From: Oceanospirillum beijerinckii DSM 7166
GTDB lineage: Bacteria > Pseudomonadota > Gammaproteobacteria > Pseudomonadales > Halomonadaceae
DNA length: 64,000 bases
Reading direction: 5' to 3'
Assembly: GCF_000422425.1 (NCBI RefSeq)
Contig: NZ_AULT01000029.1
Coordinates: 17,607 to 81,606 of the forward strand
Program-made: the position numbers and the translations under genes
The notes under the pieces: model-generated
What the model was told of the DNA's origin: nothing
Databases searched by the model: none
The model's input: the letters and a program-made list of their open reading frames with translations, nothing else
In this document: one piece after another, positions 28,253 through 49,395 of the stretch
Layout of the letters: the number at the start of each line of letters is the position of its first letter
How positions within the stretch are numbered: position 1 is the first letter of the stretch

Positions 28253-28286
28253 CTTATTTACTTATAAACCGTGAAGGGTGTCATCG

Positions 28287-31200
28287 ATGAACGTTCATCA
28301 GGAAACCAAACTGAGCCGACAGCAGCTGAATGCCAACTTTGCCCAACAGGGCATCGCCTTTTTCCCTGCCTTTGGTCACTTTACGACCATTTATCTGAAA
28401 GATGATCAAAAGAACATTAAGCAGCAATGGCTGAAAGTGGTTAAGGAGATCGATACCCTGTGCGCACAACAGAAAGAAAAAACCGTGTGTGTATTTGGTG
28501 TCGATTATGAGCTTTGGCAACAGTGGTGTGATCAGGACAAAATGCCAGCACCACAAGGCACTACCGATTTTGTCCGTCTGGATGACAAGCCTTTTGCCAA
28601 TACCCGCGGTGACCTCTGGTTCCATATCAAGGGAACCAGCGCTGAGAGCTGTGCACTGATTTATCACACTATTCTCAAAAAACTGAAATCCGTTACCCGC
28701 ACCCATACCCACACGCCTGCTCATAAACAACAGGGTGGTAAGGTCTTTGGTGGCCGCTTTATTGATGCCATGATCAATCCTGTGGATCAGGTCAACCTGT
28801 CCGAACGGGTGATCGTTGGTGAGGAGGATCTGTTCTATCGCGGCTCCGCCTATGTACTGCAGCAGAAATTTGTCCATAACTGGGCGGCGCTGGACAATAT
28901 GAGCATGGTCGAGAAGGAGGATATGATAGGCCGCAACCATAACCAGGCCATCATCCCGATGCACGATGAGCGCAGCCATATCAAGTGTGTGCGCCAGCTG
29001 AACGGTGAACGGGTGACACAACGTATTCTGCGTCAGGCCCTGCCTTTTGGTCATTCCGATAGCGGTGCAGGTAAAGAAGAAGGCGTCTACTTTGTCGCTT
29101 ACGGTAACGACGGCAATGTGTTTGAGCAGCTGATCAAAAATATCGTCGGCTCGGACAAAGGCTTTGTTAAAGACAAGATGCTGAGCAACAGCCAAGCCAT
29201 TACCGGTAACTTCTGGTTTGTACCGGCAGCAGAGCTGATTGGCCTGTCTGGTCCTGAAGCCGATATCCCTGTGCCACTGAATGACTATTACAATGTGCGC
29301 AGCGACAACGGTCTGATGTTCTACAACAACCGGGACTTCCTCAATAAAGCGCAATCGGCCAATGCTAACGACATCCCGATCAGCGATCGTATTATGCTGC
29401 TGTTAGGTCAAACCTTCAGCGAATGGAACGATACCTGGGAGAAGAAAAAGGTGATGCCTCCTTTGGGCCACCTGAAGGATCATGTCAAAGCTGAGCGCTG
29501 GCAGGGCTACAAAAAGGTCGCCAAGAGTAAATCCGCCGCCTTGCGTAAAGGTTTAGCGATCAAGATCAGCCTGTCCGATACCTTGCTACGACCTGAATAT
29601 CGTGAAAAAGCGGGCCTGTACAATATCAAACCCAACGAGATCATTATCGGTAATATGCCACCGCTGACGTTGGGTACGGGTACTCAGGTGATGGAATATC
29701 TGACCGCCGATGAGAAGATTGAACACTTTTTTGGCAATCTGAACGAGTACTCCGCCACCGGCCATAATATTCCGAATTACCACAAGGTTATCCGCCTGGG
29801 TATCGGCGGTATGATCGAGGAAGCTCAGCTCAACCTTGATGCTTCCAAAGGCGAGAAAAAAGCCTTCTATCAATCCGTACTCTGGGCACTGGAAGGTCTA
29901 CAGGCGTTTATCCTGGCCCATGCCAAACTGGCCGAAGAAAAAGTACAGGCATGCACGGATACCGATCTTCATAATAAAGAGCACTATGCGGCAATTGCGG
30001 CTCGTATGGAGAAGCTGGCTTACGAGGCACCACAAGGCCTGTTGGAAAGCCTGCAGCTGATCTTTATCGTCAACTGTGCCTTGCACCAATCCGGCGAACC
30101 TATGTCCATCGGTCGTCTGGATCAATACCTGATCGAACCTTACGAGCAGGATATTGCCGCGGGCCGCCTGACTCAGCCTCAAGCTCAGGAGATTATCGAC
30201 GCCTTCTGGTTGAAGATGGATGAAACCGTACTCTACAACCGCCAGCATATGGAAGACTACCTGAACTATGGTACCGGTGCGGTGTTCTATTCTGCCGGTA
30301 ACTTCCCTCAGGGTTCCGCGCTAAACCAGTGGGTGCAGCAGGTCACTATTGGCGGTTATCTGCCGACCAATAGCAAAAAACCAAAAGACGGCTGTAATGA
30401 TATTACACTGATGTGTCTGCGTTCCGCCCGTCGTCTGCCATTGAATGCCCCTTGTCTATCTCTGCGTGTCCACCAGGCGATGAAGACACCGCTGCATGAA
30501 GAGATTCTGCAGGAAGCCGCCATGTCCATTATGTCTGGCGGTGCCGATCCTATCCTGATGAATGACGACAAACTGGTTAAAGGCCTGATGGCCAGTGGCC
30601 CGCTGCAACTGGCCGACGCCCGTGATTATGTCTGTGACGGCTGTTACGAGCCGATTATTGGCGGTAAGAGTGAATGGGCGTTCAGCTATGTACCGATCCT
30701 GCCGGTCGTGGGCATGGCGATGAACCAAGGCGCTACCATCGCGGGTGCCGGTTGGCAGCATCTGCGCGGTATCAAAACCGGCTGGAACTCCCCAGCACCG
30801 GAGCAGATCACAAGCTTTGACCACTTCATGGAGATTTTCTTTACCCAATATAAATGGCAGATCAGCAAGTTCTATAACACCCTGATGAACAGCTATGGTG
30901 CCCTGTGGGATGTGCGCCCAAGCCCACTGTTCTCTGCCATGACCGACGGTTGCATGGAAAGCGGTAAGGATATGACCAACGGCGGTGCCGAATATCATAT
31001 TGTCGCACCGATGATGTGCGGTATTACCGATACCATCAACGCCCTGTATGCCATTAAGAAGATGGTATTTGACCAGGAGACTGCCGTTACTACCCTGCCG
31101 GAACTGCTGCAAGCCCTGTGGAATAACTGGGGTGAAGATATGCAGGAGCCTTTCCACAATGTGATGGCCGGAAATGGTCGTACGGAAGAGGCTGCTCTGC

Positions 31201-31913
31201 GCTATAAGCAGCTGCGCCAAGCAGCGTTAGCCCTGCCTAAGTTTGGTGAAGGTAACTCCGAAGATGTGAAGGCATTGGCTCAGCAGGTCGTACAGGGTTG
31301 TGTCGATATTATCCATGATGGCATTAATAAACCGGTTAAATCGGTGAAAAAAGCCTACAAGCAACTGCAGAAGCAATATGACCTGCCAGAGCGTAAGTTT
31401 GAGTTTGTGGTGACTCCGGGTGTCGGTACCTTTGAAGATAACCTGGGTCTGGGCTCCGGTATGGGGGCATCGCCGGATGGACGCCTGGCCGGTGACCCGA
31501 TTGCCGATGATTTCTGTGCCGCACCAAGTCCTGCAGATCAGCCTCCAAAAACTGAAGCCTACGATATCTACCAGTGCCTACAGGACTGGAATATCGAAGC
31601 AATCAATGTCGGCCTGTCTAACGCCGCCCCGATTGATCTGAATATCAAAGAGGACTTCCCGGTGGATGAGCTGACCGAAGTGATTCGTCAGTTTGCCGAC
31701 AGCAAGCTGGGCTCTAACCTGCTGACCTTTACTACTGCGGATCCTGAAACCTACAAACAGGCGGAAACCTTCCCTGAGAAATACGACCTGGTTCGCGTAC
31801 GCCAGGGTGGCTGGAGTGAGTTCTATATCGCCATGTTCCCAGAGCATCAAAAGTATATCTCACGCCGTCGGTTTTATGAGGTGAAGTCACCGGGCAAAAC
31901 CGCTAGATCCTGA
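28287..31913 (+). CDS. DyP-type peroxidase fused to a glycyl radical enzyme
   Basis: 1208 residues from the ATG at 28287 (AAGGGTG 6-8 bases upstream; a GTG three codons earlier is the alternative). Residues about 10-320 resemble DyP/YfeX-type haem peroxidases. They have the distal Asp in GRFIDAMINP (Asp160), the proximal His in DERSHIKC (His231) and the distal Arg in ILRQALPFG (Arg249), followed by GVYFVAYGNDG and GNFWFVPA. Residues about 370-1205 form a full pyruvate formate-lyase-like glycyl radical enzyme, with IKPNEIIIGN, the active-site cysteine in DGCYEP (Cys786) and the C-terminal radical loop RVRQGGWSEF (Gly1175 before Trp). The canonical loop is RVxGY, so this is a divergent class. 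No signal peptide is seen. No radical SAM activase is encoded in the window. The reaction is unknown; the joining of a haem peroxidase to an oxygen-sensitive radical enzyme is the main point of interest. Confidence 0.85.
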   Translation: MNVHQETKLSRQQLNANFAQQGIAFFPAFGHFTTIYLKDDQKNIKQQWLKVVKEIDTLCAQQKEKTVCVFGVDYELWQQWCDQDKMPAPQGTTDFVRLDDKPFANTRGDLWFHIKGTSAESCALIYHTILKKLKSVTRTHTHTPAHKQQGGKVFGGRFIDAMINPVDQVNLSERVIVGEEDLFYRGSAYVLQQKFVHNWAALDNMSMVEKEDMIGRNHNQAIIPMHDERSHIKCVRQLNGERVTQRILRQALPFGHSDSGAGKEEGVYFVAYGNDGNVFEQLIKNIVGSDKGFVKDKMLSNSQAITGNFWFVPAAELIGLSGPEADIPVPLNDYYNVRSDNGLMFYNNRDFLNKAQSANANDIPISDRIMLLLGQTFSEWNDTWEKKKVMPPLGHLKDHVKAERWQGYKKVAKSKSAALRKGLAIKISLSDTLLRPEYREKAGLYNIKPNEIIIGNMPPLTLGTGTQVMEYLTADEKIEHFFGNLNEYSATGHNIPNYHKVIRLGIGGMIEEAQLNLDASKGEKKAFYQSVLWALEGLQAFILAHAKLAEEKVQACTDTDLHNKEHYAAIAARMEKLAYEAPQGLLESLQLIFIVNCALHQSGEPMSIGRLDQYLIEPYEQDIAAGRLTQPQAQEIIDAFWLKMDETVLYNRQHMEDYLNYGTGAVFYSAGNFPQGSALNQWVQQVTIGGYLPTNSKKPKDGCNDITLMCLRSARRLPLNAPCLSLRVHQAMKTPLHEEILQEAAMSIMSGGADPILMNDDKLVKGLMASGPLQLADARDYVCDGCYEPIIGGKSEWAFSYVPILPVVGMAMNQGATIAGAGWQHLRGIKTGWNSPAPEQITSFDHFMEIFFTQYKWQISKFYNTLMNSYGALWDVRPSPLFSAMTDGCMESGKDMTNGGAEYHIVAPMMCGITDTINALYAIKKMVFDQETAVTTLPELLQALWNNWGEDMQEPFHNVMAGNGRTEEAALRYKQLRQAALALPKFGEGNSEDVKALAQQVVQGCVDIIHDGINKPVKSVKKAYKQLQKQYDLPERKFEFVVTPGVGTFEDNLGLGSGMGASPDGRLAGDPIADDFCAAPSPADQPPKTEAYDIYQCLQDWNIEAINVGLSNAAPIDLNIKEDFPVDELTEVIRQFADSKLGSNLLTFTTADPETYKQAETFPEKYDLVRVRQGGWSEFYIAMFPEHQKYISRRRFYEVKSPGKTARS

Positions 31914-31993: not shown

Positions 31994-33145
31994 ATGGAAA
32001 AGATTATGATGAAACTTAAACTGAACGCCATGTTTCTGCTGTTAGGTGGTTTACTGTTTCAAGCCCATGCCTACGGCGCTGCAGAGAAGAAACAAGAATC
32101 TCTGGTACAAATGATTACTGTAAACAGCTTTAGCCAACTACAACAAGCAGTACTGGAACTGAAAGAAGAGAGCAAACAGAAGAATCTGTCTAATACCCTG
32201 ATTGTAATGGATGATGACGACACACTAACCATGATGGAGTGTGAGGATCGCAGCAAGCCAATAAGCTGTCAGTTCCTCGGTGGTCCGGCCTGGTTCAGCT
32301 GGCAGGAAAATCTGTTAAAGCAGTATCAAAGCAATCATCCAGTCCCTCAAGATCTAAACCTGCTGCAACAGCTGGAAGCCAAAAATGGCAAGCTGACCAA
32401 GCAGGAAAAAGAGCTGAAACACGAGCTGGAGAAACTGGCAAAGGAAAGTGCTAATACGGTTAAACCGCCGTTGGTAGCCAACAATATGGGCGACTTGTTG
32501 GATATCGCCGCCCTGCTGCTGGCGATCAACAATATGCCCTATACCGAAGAGAAGGAAGTGCCTTCCGTACTGAAAACACTGACCAAAGATCAGGCCAAAC
32601 TGCTGGTACTGACTGCCCGAGGCACCAGCAACCTGTCAGCCACTGAAAGCCAGTTTGCTGCCCTGACAGCTACAAAAGCGGATCAAAAGAAAGGAATCAC
32701 AGCCGTGAGTTTTCAGGAGCTGATTCATAACAATGCACTGAATGGGCAAAAGAGTGGCATCGCCAGTATCGCCGGCCCATTTGCTCCCTGTACCCAGTCA
32801 ACAAACGCCAGAAGCGTGAGCTATCAGGAAGGTGTGATGTATGTCGCCGGTCAGAATAAAGGTGAGATGCTGAAATGCCTGCTAAGCAAAACGGACTCGG
32901 GGCAGATCCAAAATATCTTCTTTATCGATGATACCCTGCAAAACGTAGTTGATGTGTTCTCTGCCTTTGAAGGTCAGGATCAGTACAAGGTGACCGCCAT
33001 GCACTACACCTACCTGAAAAAGCATAAAGACGCCTTTATGAATGAAAAAGCGCTGCAGGATAAAGCCAATCAGCGCTGGGAGGATGTTAAAGCAAGCCTG
33101 GCGAGTCATCTGAAAAATCCAACAGCAATTTCTAAAGTTCAGTAA
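31994..33145 (+). CDS. Periplasmic DUF2608 (HAD-like) protein
   Basis: 383 residues with a signal peptide (LKLNAMFLLLGGLLFQAHAYG); translation may instead start at the ATG five or six codons later. The segment LIVMDDDDTLTMM matches HAD motif I, and NIFFIDDTLQNV matches the late acidic motif, so a phosphatase-like fold is likely. A Lys/Glu-rich coiled coil covers about residues 125-155. DUF2608 proteins are known mainly from Legionella and related bacteria and have no defined substrate. It follows the DyP-glycyl radical gene by 80 bases, with a weak hairpin (ACCTAC/GTAGGT) between, so co-transcription is possible. Confidence 0.7.
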   Translation: MEKIMMKLKLNAMFLLLGGLLFQAHAYGAAEKKQESLVQMITVNSFSQLQQAVLELKEESKQKNLSNTLIVMDDDDTLTMMECEDRSKPISCQFLGGPAWFSWQENLLKQYQSNHPVPQDLNLLQQLEAKNGKLTKQEKELKHELEKLAKESANTVKPPLVANNMGDLLDIAALLLAINNMPYTEEKEVPSVLKTLTKDQAKLLVLTARGTSNLSATESQFAALTATKADQKKGITAVSFQELIHNNALNGQKSGIASIAGPFAPCTQSTNARSVSYQEGVMYVAGQNKGEMLKCLLSKTDSGQIQNIFFIDDTLQNVVDVFSAFEGQDQYKVTAMHYTYLKKHKDAFMNEKALQDKANQRWEDVKASLASHLKNPTAISKVQ

Positions 33146-38339: not shown

Positions 38340-38412
38340 CAATATAGACTCTTTTTGGCATTACGGAAAGCCTATATTCTATTCCGTCTAAGCCAGCGTC
38401 TTATGCTTTTGA

Positions 38413-38520
38413 TTAATCTTTAGGCTTATCGTGCATGATGAAGTAACCAAAGCCAACAAAAAATGCAATAGCACCACCCACAACCAGTAAACCAGCGATT
38501 ACAGCATCATCTACGTACAT
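38413..38520 (-). CDS. ccoM: Small cbb3 oxidase subunit CcoM-like protein
   Basis: 35 residues: one transmembrane helix (VIAGLLVVGGAIAFFVGFGYFI) preceded by MYVDDA and followed by a short HDKPKD tail. This matches the shape and sequence style of CcoM, the single-helix subunit found in Pseudomonas stutzeri cbb3-type cytochrome oxidase. The ATG at 38520 has GAGAGG 8 bases upstream; another ATG lies two codons earlier. An FNR-type site 128 bases upstream agrees with control by low oxygen. The other oxidase genes (ccoNOQP) are not in the window. Confidence 0.65.
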   Translation of the reverse strand: MYVDDAVIAGLLVVGGAIAFFVGFGYFIMHDKPKD

Positions 38521-38647
38521 GATCATTACCTCTCAGCACTAGGCTAGCGAATAACTCAAAAAACAATAAACTGATGTCAGGTTAGCAACCTATTCGCTTT
38601 AAAACCCTGCGCCAGATCAATTTAATTAGCGACTGCGCATTTAACTC

Positions 38648-43916: not shown

Positions 43917-45590
43917 TTACACATTGCCATTATGTATCTTTTTCACAACTTGCAAACCTAAACGCTTGGCCAGGCGCACCAGGTTTGCCCGGTCCATCTT
44001 CAATTCCCGCGCGGCCGCAGCCCAGTTGCCCTCATACTGGGTCAAAGCCTGCAGTATAAGTTGTTGCTGGAATTGCTCAGTACTCTCTTTAAGGCCTTGA
44101 GATGATGCCAACGTCAGTGACACAGATGAGGCATCACCAGCCACTTCCCCATTACTTATCTTATCTTCAGCCTCAAAGCTACTGAGAGTCATTGGATCTG
44201 TAAAAGAAGAAACCAGCTCACCAAGGTGATGGCACTGAATACAAGTAATATCCCCCCTTCGCTGTGTACCAGAAAGCAGCTTATTACCTTGTTTATACTC
44301 TGCGTTAGCGATCAGAGCTGCACGCCCCATCACATGCTCAAGCTCACGTACATTGCCCGGCCAGGAATACGCCTGCAGTGCCTGATGGGCCTGACTGTCA
44401 ATGATTAACTGTGCTAACCCCAGCCTACGCCGCGACTGTTCCGCAAAATAACCTGCCAGCAAAGCCACATCACCATGACGCCGACGTAACGGAGGCACCT
44501 TAACAGGGTAGACACTCAGTCGGTGATAGAGATCAGCCCGGAAGCGTTTCGCTGCCACCTCCTGCTGCAAAATACGATTGGTTGCCGCCAAAACCCTGAC
44601 ATCGACGTGAGAGATGCTATCCCGGCCAACTGGCTGAATTTCCTGATTTTGCAGCGCTCTCAGCAGCTTACTCTGGGCGACTAAAGGCAACTCACCTATC
44701 TCATCCAGAAATAGTGTGCCGCCATCAGCCAGACTGAATTTACCGACCCGATCCCGGTCTGCTCCGGTAAAAGCCCCTTTCACATGGCCAAATAACTCAC
44801 TCTCGATCAGGTTTTCTGGAATCGCTGCACAATTCACATAAACCAAGGGTCCATCAGCACGGTTAGATTGTTCATGCAGTGTTCGGGCGACCAACTCCTT
44901 ACCGACGCCCGTTTCACCTTCAATCAAGATGGCATAATCAGAAGGCGCGACCAGAGCCAGCTCTCGTTTCAGCTGTTGCATCTCAGAACTATCACCTATC
45001 AGCTCGCCACCATCTTTGGTTAATGCTTCCCGGGTTAACTCAGTAATTACATGACGAGTGTGAGCCGAATCATCTTCCAAGTGCTGCAACAGCATTGCTG
45101 TTTTCAGACTCGCCGCCGCCATGGCACTGATCACTTCCAGCGTGTACTCTGGAATCTCATCAAAAGCACCAGGGGTCATACTGTCCAGAGTTAACACACC
45201 GATCAGTTGCTGATCAGCCATTAATGGCAGTCCCATACAGGCATGCACGGGTAAGTCACCACGATGGCCCTGCAACATACCATCATACGGATCTGGCAGA
45301 TCACAGTGAGTCTGAAAGCGAGTCGGAATATTAGTCTGGCAGATCTGTTGAAAACGAGGCTGGGAGTCAATTGTAAAGCGTCGACCTAACACATCGGCGG
45401 TCAGCCCCTTTTGTGCCAACGGTTTTAGCAAATTACCATTACGCTGCAGTAACACCACCGCATCACACTGAATACTGCCCCGAACGGTGTTGAGCAAGCG
45501 ATCGAACCTATCTTTTGCACTTAGACTATTGGCCATATCTATCGCCAGTTGCAACAGGGCGTTATGTGAAATCTGGTTTGCGGGCGACAC
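43917..45590 (-). CDS. norR: Nitric oxide-responsive sigma-54 activator NorR (FhpR)
   Basis: 557 residues. An N-terminal GAF domain (about 15-170) can hold the NO-sensing iron. A central AAA+ domain follows with Walker [10 protein letters not shown], the sigma-54 contact loop GAFTGA and [15 protein letters not shown]-terminal Fis-type helix-turn-helix ([25 protein letters not shown]) completes it. A cysteine pair CIQCHH lies in the linker before the DNA-binding domain, which is less usual. It diverges from the ppyR-like gene and hmp. The intergenic region holds two GT-N7-AC sites and a sigma-54 promoter, which is the classical NorR arrangement. Confidence 0.92.
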
Positions 45591-46316: not shown

Positions 46317-47534
46317 ATGTTAACTCAGGATCAAATTACCATTGTAAAAAGCACTGTACCTCTACTGGAAAGCGCAGGCCCTGCGATTACACAGCATTTT
46401 TATCAACGTATGTTCAGTCACAACCCCGAACTGAAAGATATTTTCAACATGAGCCATCAGCAATCCGGTGGACAACCACTGGCACTGTTTAATGCCATCG
46501 CTGCGTACGCTAAGTATATTGATAATCTTCCCGCACTAACCTCAGCCGTAGAAAGAATTGCCCATAAACACATTACGTTTGATATTCAGCCGGAACAATA
46601 CGATATTGTCGGCCATCATCTTATTCAGACCCTGAAAGAACTGGCTCCCGGTGCTTTCACAGCAGAAGTTGAAGACGCCTGGGTTGCAGCTTACCAGCAG
46701 TTAGCTGATATCTTTATTGGTCGAGAAGCAGAAATCTATCAGGCTAACGCCCGTGCAAAAGGCGGCTGGCAAGGAGCACGTCTGTTTAAAGTTCAGGATA
46801 AAAATCAGGAGTCAGAACTGGTCACCAGCTTTATTCTGGTGCCTGTGGATGGTCAACCTGTGGTCGATTTTCAGCCGGGTCAATATCTGGGCATTCGCCT
46901 GCAACCTGACAGTTCAGATTATCAGGAGATCCGCCAGTACTCCCTGTCTGATAGAGCCAATGGCAGCAGCTATCGCATTTCGGTAAAACGGGAAGGTATA
47001 CAAGAAACGAGTAGTCAACCGGGCATTGTCTCCAACTATCTGCATGATCATGTTGAGGTTAATGATGAGCTGGAGCTGTTTGCCCCTGCTGGCGATTTTT
47101 TCTTTACTGATCATCAGCGCCCTGTGGTCGCCATCTCGGCCGGTGTTGGCCTGACACCCATGATCTCAATTGTAGAAACCCTGGCTGCACAACAATATAA
47201 GCAACCGGTGTTTTTCTTACACGCGTGTGAGAACCGTGCTCAACACTCATTTGCTCGTCGAATCCATGAACTAGGTGAGTGCCTGCCGCTAAGCAACCAT
47301 ATCTGGTATCGCAATGCTGATAGTGCAGAAAGCAATGCCCCCTTAAACCTGAATATCCACCATGGCCTGATGCAGCTGAACAAAATCAAACAGCAGCTAC
47401 CATTGGAAAACGGCGACTTCTATCTATGTGGTCCAGTTGCTTTTATGCAATTTGCCAAACAGCAACTGCTGGAATTGGGCGTTGACCAAAGCCGTATTCA
47501 TTATGAAGTCTTTGGCCCTCATCAGGACTTCTAA
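46317..47534 (+). CDS. hmp: Flavohemoglobin (nitric oxide dioxygenase)
   Basis: 405 residues. The N-terminal globin has the proximal histidine in IAHKHITFDIQPEQYDIVG (His about 85) and distal Tyr/Gln in ITQHFYQRMFS. An FAD domain with RQYSLSD and an NAD(P)-binding domain with AGVGLTPMISI and FYLCGPVAFM follow. Hmp oxidises NO to nitrate with O2 and NAD(P)H and so detoxifies nitrosative stress. Its place downstream of NorR sites and a sigma-54 promoter explains control by NO. A palindromic repeat (copy D) follows the stop by 10 bases. Confidence 0.95.
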   Translation: MLTQDQITIVKSTVPLLESAGPAITQHFYQRMFSHNPELKDIFNMSHQQSGGQPLALFNAIAAYAKYIDNLPALTSAVERIAHKHITFDIQPEQYDIVGHHLIQTLKELAPGAFTAEVEDAWVAAYQQLADIFIGREAEIYQANARAKGGWQGARLFKVQDKNQESELVTSFILVPVDGQPVVDFQPGQYLGIRLQPDSSDYQEIRQYSLSDRANGSSYRISVKREGIQETSSQPGIVSNYLHDHVEVNDELELFAPAGDFFFTDHQRPVVAISAGVGLTPMISIVETLAAQQYKQPVFFLHACENRAQHSFARRIHELGECLPLSNHIWYRNADSAESNAPLNLNIHHGLMQLNKIKQQLPLENGDFYLCGPVAFMQFAKQQLLELGVDQSRIHYEVFGPHQDF

Positions 47535-47894: not shown

Positions 47895-49395
47895 ATGACT
47901 GAGCCTAACGAGACAGCTATACTCAAGGATTCCGCCTTCAAAACACTAGCGGATTCATTCGCGACATTTTATAGCAATACCATCGCCATCGATCAGAAAC
48001 ACAGGATCACCTGGATCAGTCAGGGTTACCAAGAATTTTTAGGTCTGGAGCACAACCCTGTCGGTGAACCGATTACCCGCTATATCCACAACAGTTTTCT
48101 CCCCAGAGTGGCAGATAGTGGCGAGCCAGTGCTATTGGAGCTGCTACGAGTGAAGCAGCAATGGATTCTGGTCAGTGTCATTCCACTCCAGTCTGATCAG
48201 GGTGAAGTAATCGGGTCATTTGGTTTTGTTGCACTGGAAAACCCTCAAGGCACACACTCCCTGGTCAGCCGCTTTAATCAGCTGCAGCGCCAATTAGATA
48301 ATGTCACTCAGGAACTCAATCAAGCTCGACAACATAAATACCGTTTATCTCAAATTACAGGCCGCAGCGAACAGCTGCAAAGTGTCAAACACCAGATCCG
48401 GCAAGCCGCCCGTTTTGATATTTCAGTACTGCTGACCGGAGAAACCGGTACCGGCAAGGAGCTGTTTGCCCACGCCCTGCATGAACTCTCCAGCCGCTCC
48501 CATCAGGCCTTTGTTTCACTCAATGTCGCTGCAATTCCCGATAATCTGATTGAAGCGGAATTTTTTGGCGTTGCTCCCGGCGCCTATACCGGTGCATCGA
48601 ACAAAGGGCGTAAAGGTAAGCTGGAGCTGGCCAATGGCGGCACCCTGTTTCTGGATGAAATTGGCGATATGCCACTGGAGCTGCAAAGCAAACTGCTACG
48701 CGCCCTGCAGGAGAAGGAGTTTGAGCCATTAGGCTCCAATAAGATAAGAAAAGTTGATATTCGTATCGTTGCCGCCACCAGTCGTAATCTGCCAAAAATG
48801 GTAGAAAACGGCGAGTTTCGCGCAGACCTTTACTACCGCCTGAACGCCATGCCAATTCACCCCCCCCCCTCTCAGGGAGCGTCAGGCAGACATTGACCTG
48901 ATTGCAGAGCGCCTGCTGGATGAACTCTGCATCAGGCTGCAACTGCCGGTTAAATATCTGACACCGGATGCCATTAACCTACTATTTCAACACACCTGGC
49001 CGGGCAATGTACGGGAACTGCAAAATCTGCTGGAACGAGCGGTAATTATGGCAGAGGAAAACAACGAGATAGATGCCCAGCTGATTCAGTCGCTGCTGAT
49101 TAACTCCGTTCAAGTGGCGCAGATACCATCCACACAGAATCCAGTTACAGGATTGCCTTCACCTATGGCACCACCAGTGATCACTCACTTGAGTAAAAAC
49201 GCACAGCCGCAGACCAAGGCTCCACCACAGCCTCTGCATCAACAAATGGCCCAAACAGAGCGCCAGGCCATTGAAGCCGCATTGGCTTACACCCAGGGCC
49301 ATAAAGTCAAAACGGCTAAACTATTGGGTATCTCACGTGCCAGCCTGTATGAAAAGATGCGTAAACTGGAGATTCAATACTCAGAGACATGCTAA
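47895..49395 (+). pseudogene. PAS-domain sigma-54 activator, frameshifted in a 10-C run
   Basis: The first frame (47895-48896) encodes a PAS-like sensor (about residues 18-125) and most of an AAA+ domain: Walker A TGETGTGKE, the sigma-54 loop GAYTGA, and [12 protein letters not shown]. It then shifts at ten consecutive C (48860-48869). With one C fewer the frame continues PPPLRERQADIDLIAERLL, then [15 protein letters not shown], and ends with a Fis-type helix-turn-helix (KVKTAKLLGISRASLYEKMRKL) at 49395. The repaired product would be about 500 residues. This is either a sequencing error, a fixed mutation or a phase-variable tract. Convergent to the 3-hydroxybutyrate oligomer hydrolase gene, which it may control. 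Confidence 0.85.

Follow-up and report, generated by a model that had tools for sequence, protein, structure and literature searches.

Glycyl radical enzymes (GREs) perform some of the hardest eliminations and carbon–carbon bond cleavages, and are read as strictly anaerobic catalysts that depend on an activase. In the known enzymes the radical is installed by a partner radical S-adenosylmethionine (SAM) enzyme, and these enzymes are extremely sensitive to oxygen (PMC6386719). The kind nearest to the protein described here comprises the glycyl radical dehydratases and lyases, such as the B12-independent glycerol and 1,2-propanediol dehydratases and CutC. A 64,000-nucleotide stretch of the Oceanospirillum beijerinckii DSM 7166 genome (contig NZ_AULT01000029.1, positions 17,607 to 81,606 of the forward strand; hereafter the window) encodes a single protein in which a DyP-type peroxidase domain is joined to a complete GRE fold (DyP-GRE). 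No recognisable radical-SAM GRE activase was found in the genome of this bacterium or in nearly all of the other carrier genomes searched. It is close to an even call, falling slightly to the doubtful side, that the peroxidase half, when fed H2O2, makes the radical in the GRE half and so replaces the radical-SAM activase.

A peroxidase and a glycyl radical enzyme fold in one frame

The fusion occupies positions 28287..31913 (+), with 1208 codons from an ATG at 28287, and the full open reading frame (ORF), which opens at a GTG at 28278, comprises 1211 codons (28278-31913, +). Residue numbers given here are counted from the ATG, and Pfam match positions refer to the 1211-residue frame. Both the DyP-type peroxidase domain (residues 13-320; 28323..29246, +) and the GRE domain, of dehydratase/lyase type (residues 361-1200; 29367..31886, +), are full folds, the latter with the barrel of the PFL and ribonucleotide reductase (RNR) type, and an AlphaFold2 model of the whole protein reached a pLDDT of 91.3 and a pTM of 0.92, in agreement with a sequence-only reading that had placed a DyP-type peroxidase and a complete GRE in one 1208-codon frame. 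The domain search proposed in that reading matched Dyp_perox_C at 161-318 (E = 1.1e-22) and PFL-like at 482-1014 (E = 6.5e-103), with no match to Gly_radical at E <= 0.001. The NCBIfam DyP superfamily model passes its cut-off on the fusion, and the nearest solved structures (DtpB, YfeX, DypB and SO_0740) identify the fused peroxidase as a B-type DyP. Curated NCBIfam GRE models score far below their cut-offs, the best being PFL2-3 at 240 bits against 678, an early indication that the GRE half departs from ordinary GREs. A sequencing joint, one of the findings that the same reading had named as undoing it, or a frameshift chimera is ruled out because a single ORF carries the two domains in 50 of the 71 loci recovered from a scan of a species-genome collection and in 116 of the 120 relatives listed (the best 120 of 268 phmmer matches among 5.8 billion proteins).

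Residue counts for homologues are drawn from these best 120 matches, and the P-numbered proteins and L-numbered loci overlap (P0036 = L033). All three members of the Asp160/His231/Arg249 set expected of a DyP are present in the window. His231 (28977..28979, +), the predicted proximal haem ligand, is kept in 113/113 listed full-length proteins, 29/29 short-form loci and 17/17 long-form loci, and the distal arginine, Arg249 (29031..29033, +), in 108/113, 24/29 and 17/17, respectively. The distal acid, Asp160 (28764..28766, +), is Asp in 102 and His in 11 of the 113 listed full-length fused proteins; among the loci it is Asp in 24 and His in five of the 29 short forms, and Glu in all 17 long forms. 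Two DyP-GRE proteins of about 1525 residues (P0037 and P0038), with His at position 160 and Arg249 kept, carry in addition an annexin domain (PF00191), a hint of eukaryotic hosts.

The residues predicted to carry the radical chemistry are nearly invariant. The GCYEP motif (30642..30650, +) holds the predicted thiyl cysteine, Cys786, found in 119/120 listed homologues, and the predicted acid/base glutamate, Glu788, found in 120/120; the exception at Cys786 is a Tyr in a metagenome-assembled genome (MAG) protein (P0036 = L033) whose frame ends before the glycyl loop. His493 (29763..29765, +), in a GH motif aligned with that of glycerol dehydratase, is present in 119/119. The glycyl loop Gly1174-Gly1175-Trp1176 (GGW[STN]E[FY]; 31806..31814, +), aligned with the GYS of 1r8w, reads RVRQGGWSEF in the window, with Trp at the position held by Tyr in ordinary GREs, and Gly1175 and Trp1176 are each present in 118/118 listed homologues that extend to the loop. 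The 71 loci were found by two patterns, one of them the GGW loop itself, and loop conservation is to be taken from the 120 phmmer matches. The cysteine motif, the glycyl loop and the oddity of GGWSEF had all been picked out, correctly, in the sequence-only reading. The Cys-x-Glu and GH motifs, whose roles we take to be those known from glycerol dehydratase, point to an elimination of the dehydratase/lyase type over pyruvate cleavage. In addition, six Trp or Tyr residues (W199, Y346, W380, W682, W948 and W1176) are invariant across the 78 full-length rows of alignment A2, which were picked by the author for length and spread.

Distribution, split forms and the search for an activase

In databases the fusion architecture is not rare, its members being named 'Dyp-type peroxidase' or 'pyruvate-formate lyase'. 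The sequence-only reading knew of no described enzyme of this kind; open-licence PubMed Central articles likewise yielded no description of a GRE with a DyP or other haem peroxidase, of such a fusion, or of its oxygen tolerance or activating enzyme. Of the 50 fused loci, 47 have a nearly whole GRE part and three are frame-broken, and together they span the Pseudomonadota, Planctomycetota, Gemmatimonadota, Acidobacteriota, Thermodesulfobacteriota, Bacteroidota, Myxococcota, Cyanobacteriota, Actinomycetota and Chloroflexota, some of these phyla through MAGs only. Named isolates with the fusion type include Anabaena, Archangium, Corallococcus, Actinoalloteichus, Massilia, Janthinobacterium and Thalassospira, among others, and a stand-alone GRE form occurs in Ensifer, Sphingomonas and Flavobacterium. 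Many of the carrier genera are aerobes, and a class III RNR is encoded in 8/46 carrier genomes, with the window's own genome not among them.

A tree of the GRE part, as the sequence-only reading had advised, sets the family as a deep clade apart from five ordinary GREs, with the 13 stand-alone GREs forming one clade (SH-aLRT 100) and the fused proteins opposite (85), in a 77-row tree built by a quick method under LG+G4 with SH-aLRT support only and long outgroup branches. A DyP gene is the next gene after the GRE in 12/12 complete stand-alone loci with downstream DNA (L070, L072, L073, L075, L076, L078-L081, L083, L084 and L086) and in 2/2 partial ones (L090 and L092), and the stand-alone GRE was therefore rejected as a sign that the DyP is dispensable. 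One further stand-alone locus (L085) stops at a contig edge, and a frame-broken fusion (L038) and a truncated contig (L074) were excluded as split loci and are included in the 15 stand-alone rows used for residue counts. The split-form DyPs of L080, L070 and L072 exceed the Pfam cut-offs for both Dyp_perox_N and Dyp_perox_C, and those of the remaining split loci were identified by cluster profile match. The structures closest to the Ensifer split DyP (L080:12469-13962) are those of EfeB, whereas B-type and related structures are closest to the DyPs fused in the window and in L055. The GREs of the family are thus partnered by DyPs of two different types, a pattern that separate recruitment or replacement could explain.

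The window's own genome (5.3 Mb, 99% complete) encodes a single PFL-like protein, namely the fusion, and the activase model TIGR02494, whose cut-off is 174 bits, scores no higher than 25 bits in it. The genome has 23 matches to the radical-SAM model PF04055, of which 18 are named as other enzymes over curated cut-offs (MoaA, two LipA, MiaB, RimO, RlmN, BioB, HemN, HemW, QueE, EpmB, PqqE, ArsS, CofG, CofH, two of QhpD type and YgiQ), and five (L011, L015, L016, L023 and L024) matched no activase model at E <= 1e-10 (1e-15 for L016). The genome thereby holds two maturases of QhpD type (for quinohemoprotein amine dehydrogenase), along with the F420-type CofG and CofH (L014, L017, L012 and L019).

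The search was extended to 45 other carrier genomes, chosen by the author from the 71 loci (isolates as well as MAGs with longer contigs, of unreported completeness, two of the genomes holding two loci). TIGR02494 was over its cut-off in 0/41 carriers whose only GRE is of the DyP-associated type, with a best score of 51 bits. The other four (G005, G009, G012 and G027) also encode an ordinary GRE, and each has a TIGR02494 match within about 4 kb of it, over the cut-off in two and below it, at 127-128 bits, in G009 and G012. A tool-drawn sample of 274 genomes of the same class, the window's own (G000) included, contained six with a PFL-like protein: four with a full-length ordinary GRE, all with TIGR02494 over its cut-off on the same contig, and two of the fusion type (the window's own and G224, with a 1214-residue frame on a contig whose length, 10509, equals that of the L025 contig), neither with TIGR02494 over its cut-off. 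An activase match therefore lies near the ordinary GRE in 8/8 genomes, six of them over the cut-off. TIGR02493 was searched in six genomes. An activase hidden among Fer4_12 (PF13353) proteins was also considered and rejected: this loose model is over its cut-off in 45/46 genomes, strong whole-profile matches (at least 90 bits) occur in six genomes only, and those of G027 and G044 adjoin a class III RNR. The matches in the other four (G015, G019, G023 and G042) lack such an explanation and are set out below as evidence against the proposal.

Proposed activation by peroxide and its alternatives

Replacement of the activase by the peroxidase is suggested by two observations, namely that no recognisable activase was found in carriers whose only GRE is of the DyP-associated type and that a DyP is the next gene in the split clade. 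The retention of the radical residues and of the haem His, and the six invariant Trp or Tyr residues, also speak for it. Haem would bind at His231, and reaction of H2O2 with the ferric haem would give ferryl haem (Compound I), from which the oxidising hole would travel via conserved Trp and Tyr residues into the GRE half. A radical would then form at Trp1176/Gly1175 and subsequently a thiyl radical at Cys786, which would abstract hydrogen from the substrate; Glu788 and His493, as acid and base, would assist the elimination, as in eliminations of the glycerol dehydratase type, after which the hydrogen would be returned. Because peroxide, and not a reduced [4Fe-4S] cluster with SAM, would start the radical, such an enzyme could be re-armed in air. 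A precedent for the transfer step is found in an A-type DyP, in which the hole is reported to pass from haem to Trp and Tyr (PMC10646903).

Several observations weigh against this proposal. As the fused DyP is of B type, one study of B-type radicals is unfavourable: it states that B-type DyPs had until then been without evidence for protein radicals after H2O2 activation, ties the tyrosyl radicals that it reports to the resting state of one enterobacterial enzyme, and suggests long-range paths (PMC8154254). A glycyl radical formed in air would still be exposed to O2, the invariant Trp residues may instead be structural, and the standard glycyl signature, R-V-x-G-Y, is absent, with GGW in its place. 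Arg249 is lost in 5/113 listed proteins and 5/46 full-length loci (L037, L040, L041, L043, L064, P0110 and P0116-P0119) and Asp160 is replaced by His in 11/113 and 5/46, and the peroxidase chemistry of some members may thus be altered with Cys and Gly retained. Finally, in 4/41 carriers (G015, G019, G023 and G042; genes L138-L141) a small radical-SAM gene resembling NrdG occurs on a contig other than that of the DyP-GRE, in the absence of any class III RNR to account for it, and its product could be the activator in these four genomes. The search would also have missed any radical-SAM enzyme that has diverged too far to match PF04055. The fused loci in which the distal Asp has become His and Arg249 is also lost (L037, L040, L041, L043 and L064) include titles such as Scalindua and Desulfobacca, which are anaerobes, so constraint on the residues of the peroxidase may be looser in anaerobic lineages.

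The broader claim, that haem-peroxidase Compound I, fused or next door, starts the thiyl/glycyl radical with H2O2 and no radical-SAM activase, and that GRE chemistry thereby operates in aerobes of about ten phyla, is put forward tentatively and somewhat more guardedly than the activation step. The sequence-only reading had offered three roles for the peroxidase, of which replacement of the usual activation is favoured by the absence of the activase from the window's own genome and from 41/41 searched carriers whose only GRE is of this type, and protection of the radical and supply of an oxidised substrate are not.

Protection would mean that the GRE is an ordinary one, activated by an unrecognised radical-SAM protein, with the DyP half removing damaging peroxide. 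Fusion and operon require functional proximity only, and candidates might be sought among the NrdG-like genes of unexplained role in 4/41 carriers or the 5/23 radical-SAM matches of the window's own genome that lack a name over cut-off. Yet it is O2 that destroys glycyl radicals, and DyP peroxidases do not use it up; moreover, no activase candidate is common to the carriers (TIGR02494 over its cut-off in 0/41; whole-profile PF13353 matches of at least 90 bits in 5/41, one of them, G044, beside a class III RNR), in contrast to the ordinary-GRE genomes, 8/8 of which do show an activase match nearby. This explanation is regarded as unlikely.

It is a little harder still to credit that the DyP half oxidises a compound whose product is cleaved or dehydrated by the GRE half, with GRE activation left unexplained. 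Consecutive enzymes are often fused, and a pathway is suggested by the neighbours of some loci, among them genes for phosphoesterase, PLD-like, HAD and deaminase proteins; however, these neighbours (HAD/DUF2608, PLD-like, phosphoesterase and deaminase) are found only at subsets of loci, whereas the DyP pairing is constant, the missing activase is not accounted for, and one study describes the active sites of DyPs as sterically restrictive (PMC8154254). Loss of the radical from the GRE-like half, leaving two-electron chemistry or a scaffold, would agree with the failure to find an activase, the Trp in place of the signature Tyr and the family's deep branching apart from the five ordinary GREs, but is very improbable, as drift is to be expected of a radical site no longer in use and Cys786 (119/120), Gly1175 (118/118 listed) and, equally, His493 and Glu788 are kept down to about 40% identity.

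Genomic surroundings and comparison with known systems

Downstream of the fusion, 80 bp from its 3' end, lies a gene for a DUF2608 (HAD-like) protein (31994..33145, +), which is found beside the fusion in 6/71 loci. Cytidine deaminase-like and HAD-like genes recur near the DyP and GRE genes of L080 (12469-17521), L086, L078 and L064, three of which also have a PLD-like gene, and these neighbours possibly belong to one pathway. A role in defence was rejected: in a PADLOC search the PLD-like neighbour alone gave matches, weak ones to DrmC and ZacB, and neither the fusion nor DUF2608, the stand-alone GRE with its DyP, the deaminase, the HAD protein or the phosphoesterase gave any. Elsewhere in the window, a flavohaemoglobin-type protein with globin, FAD and NAD domains (46317-47534, +) is flanked by two sigma-54 activator genes (43917-45590, -, and 47895-48896, +), and positions 38364-38554 (-) match the Rfam small RNA PhrS over the full model length (44.5 bits; gathering threshold 37).

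DyP-GRE proteins are a form of GRE, having its fold and radical residues and lacking the standard signature and a recognised activase. Compared with the glycyl radical dehydratases and lyases, the type found in the window has an N-terminal or neighbouring DyP and a GGW in place of a GY loop, forms its own deep clade, and has no recognised activase gene; the activases that ordinary GREs need (PflA, the PflC/E type and NrdG) were not found for it. In contrast to the B-type DyPs DtpB, YfeX, DypB and SO_0740, the fused peroxidase is covalently tied to a GRE fold, and some DyP-GRE members have His for the distal Asp and no Arg, with others having Glu for Asp. If the proposed mechanism is true, this would be a new class of enzyme: a widespread, conserved, peroxidase-partnered GRE with no recognised activase, many of whose carriers belong to aerobic genera, would break the rule that GREs are anaerobic and activase-dependent, and would offer radical biocatalysts that peroxide turns on in the presence of air.

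A parallel is found among the RNRs, where the thiyl-radical fold is started by an oxygen-dependent metal site in class I and by an activase-made glycyl radical in class III. The same logic is proposed here, with the differences that the starter of the DyP-GRE would be a haem peroxidase and that its fold is of the PFL/dehydratase type and not that of RNR. By this analogy, and if the mechanism holds, the haem peroxidase would stand beside class I RNR as a second way of starting thiyl-radical chemistry that is compatible with oxygen, and would have opened GRE chemistry to aerobes as class I RNR did for the RNR fold.

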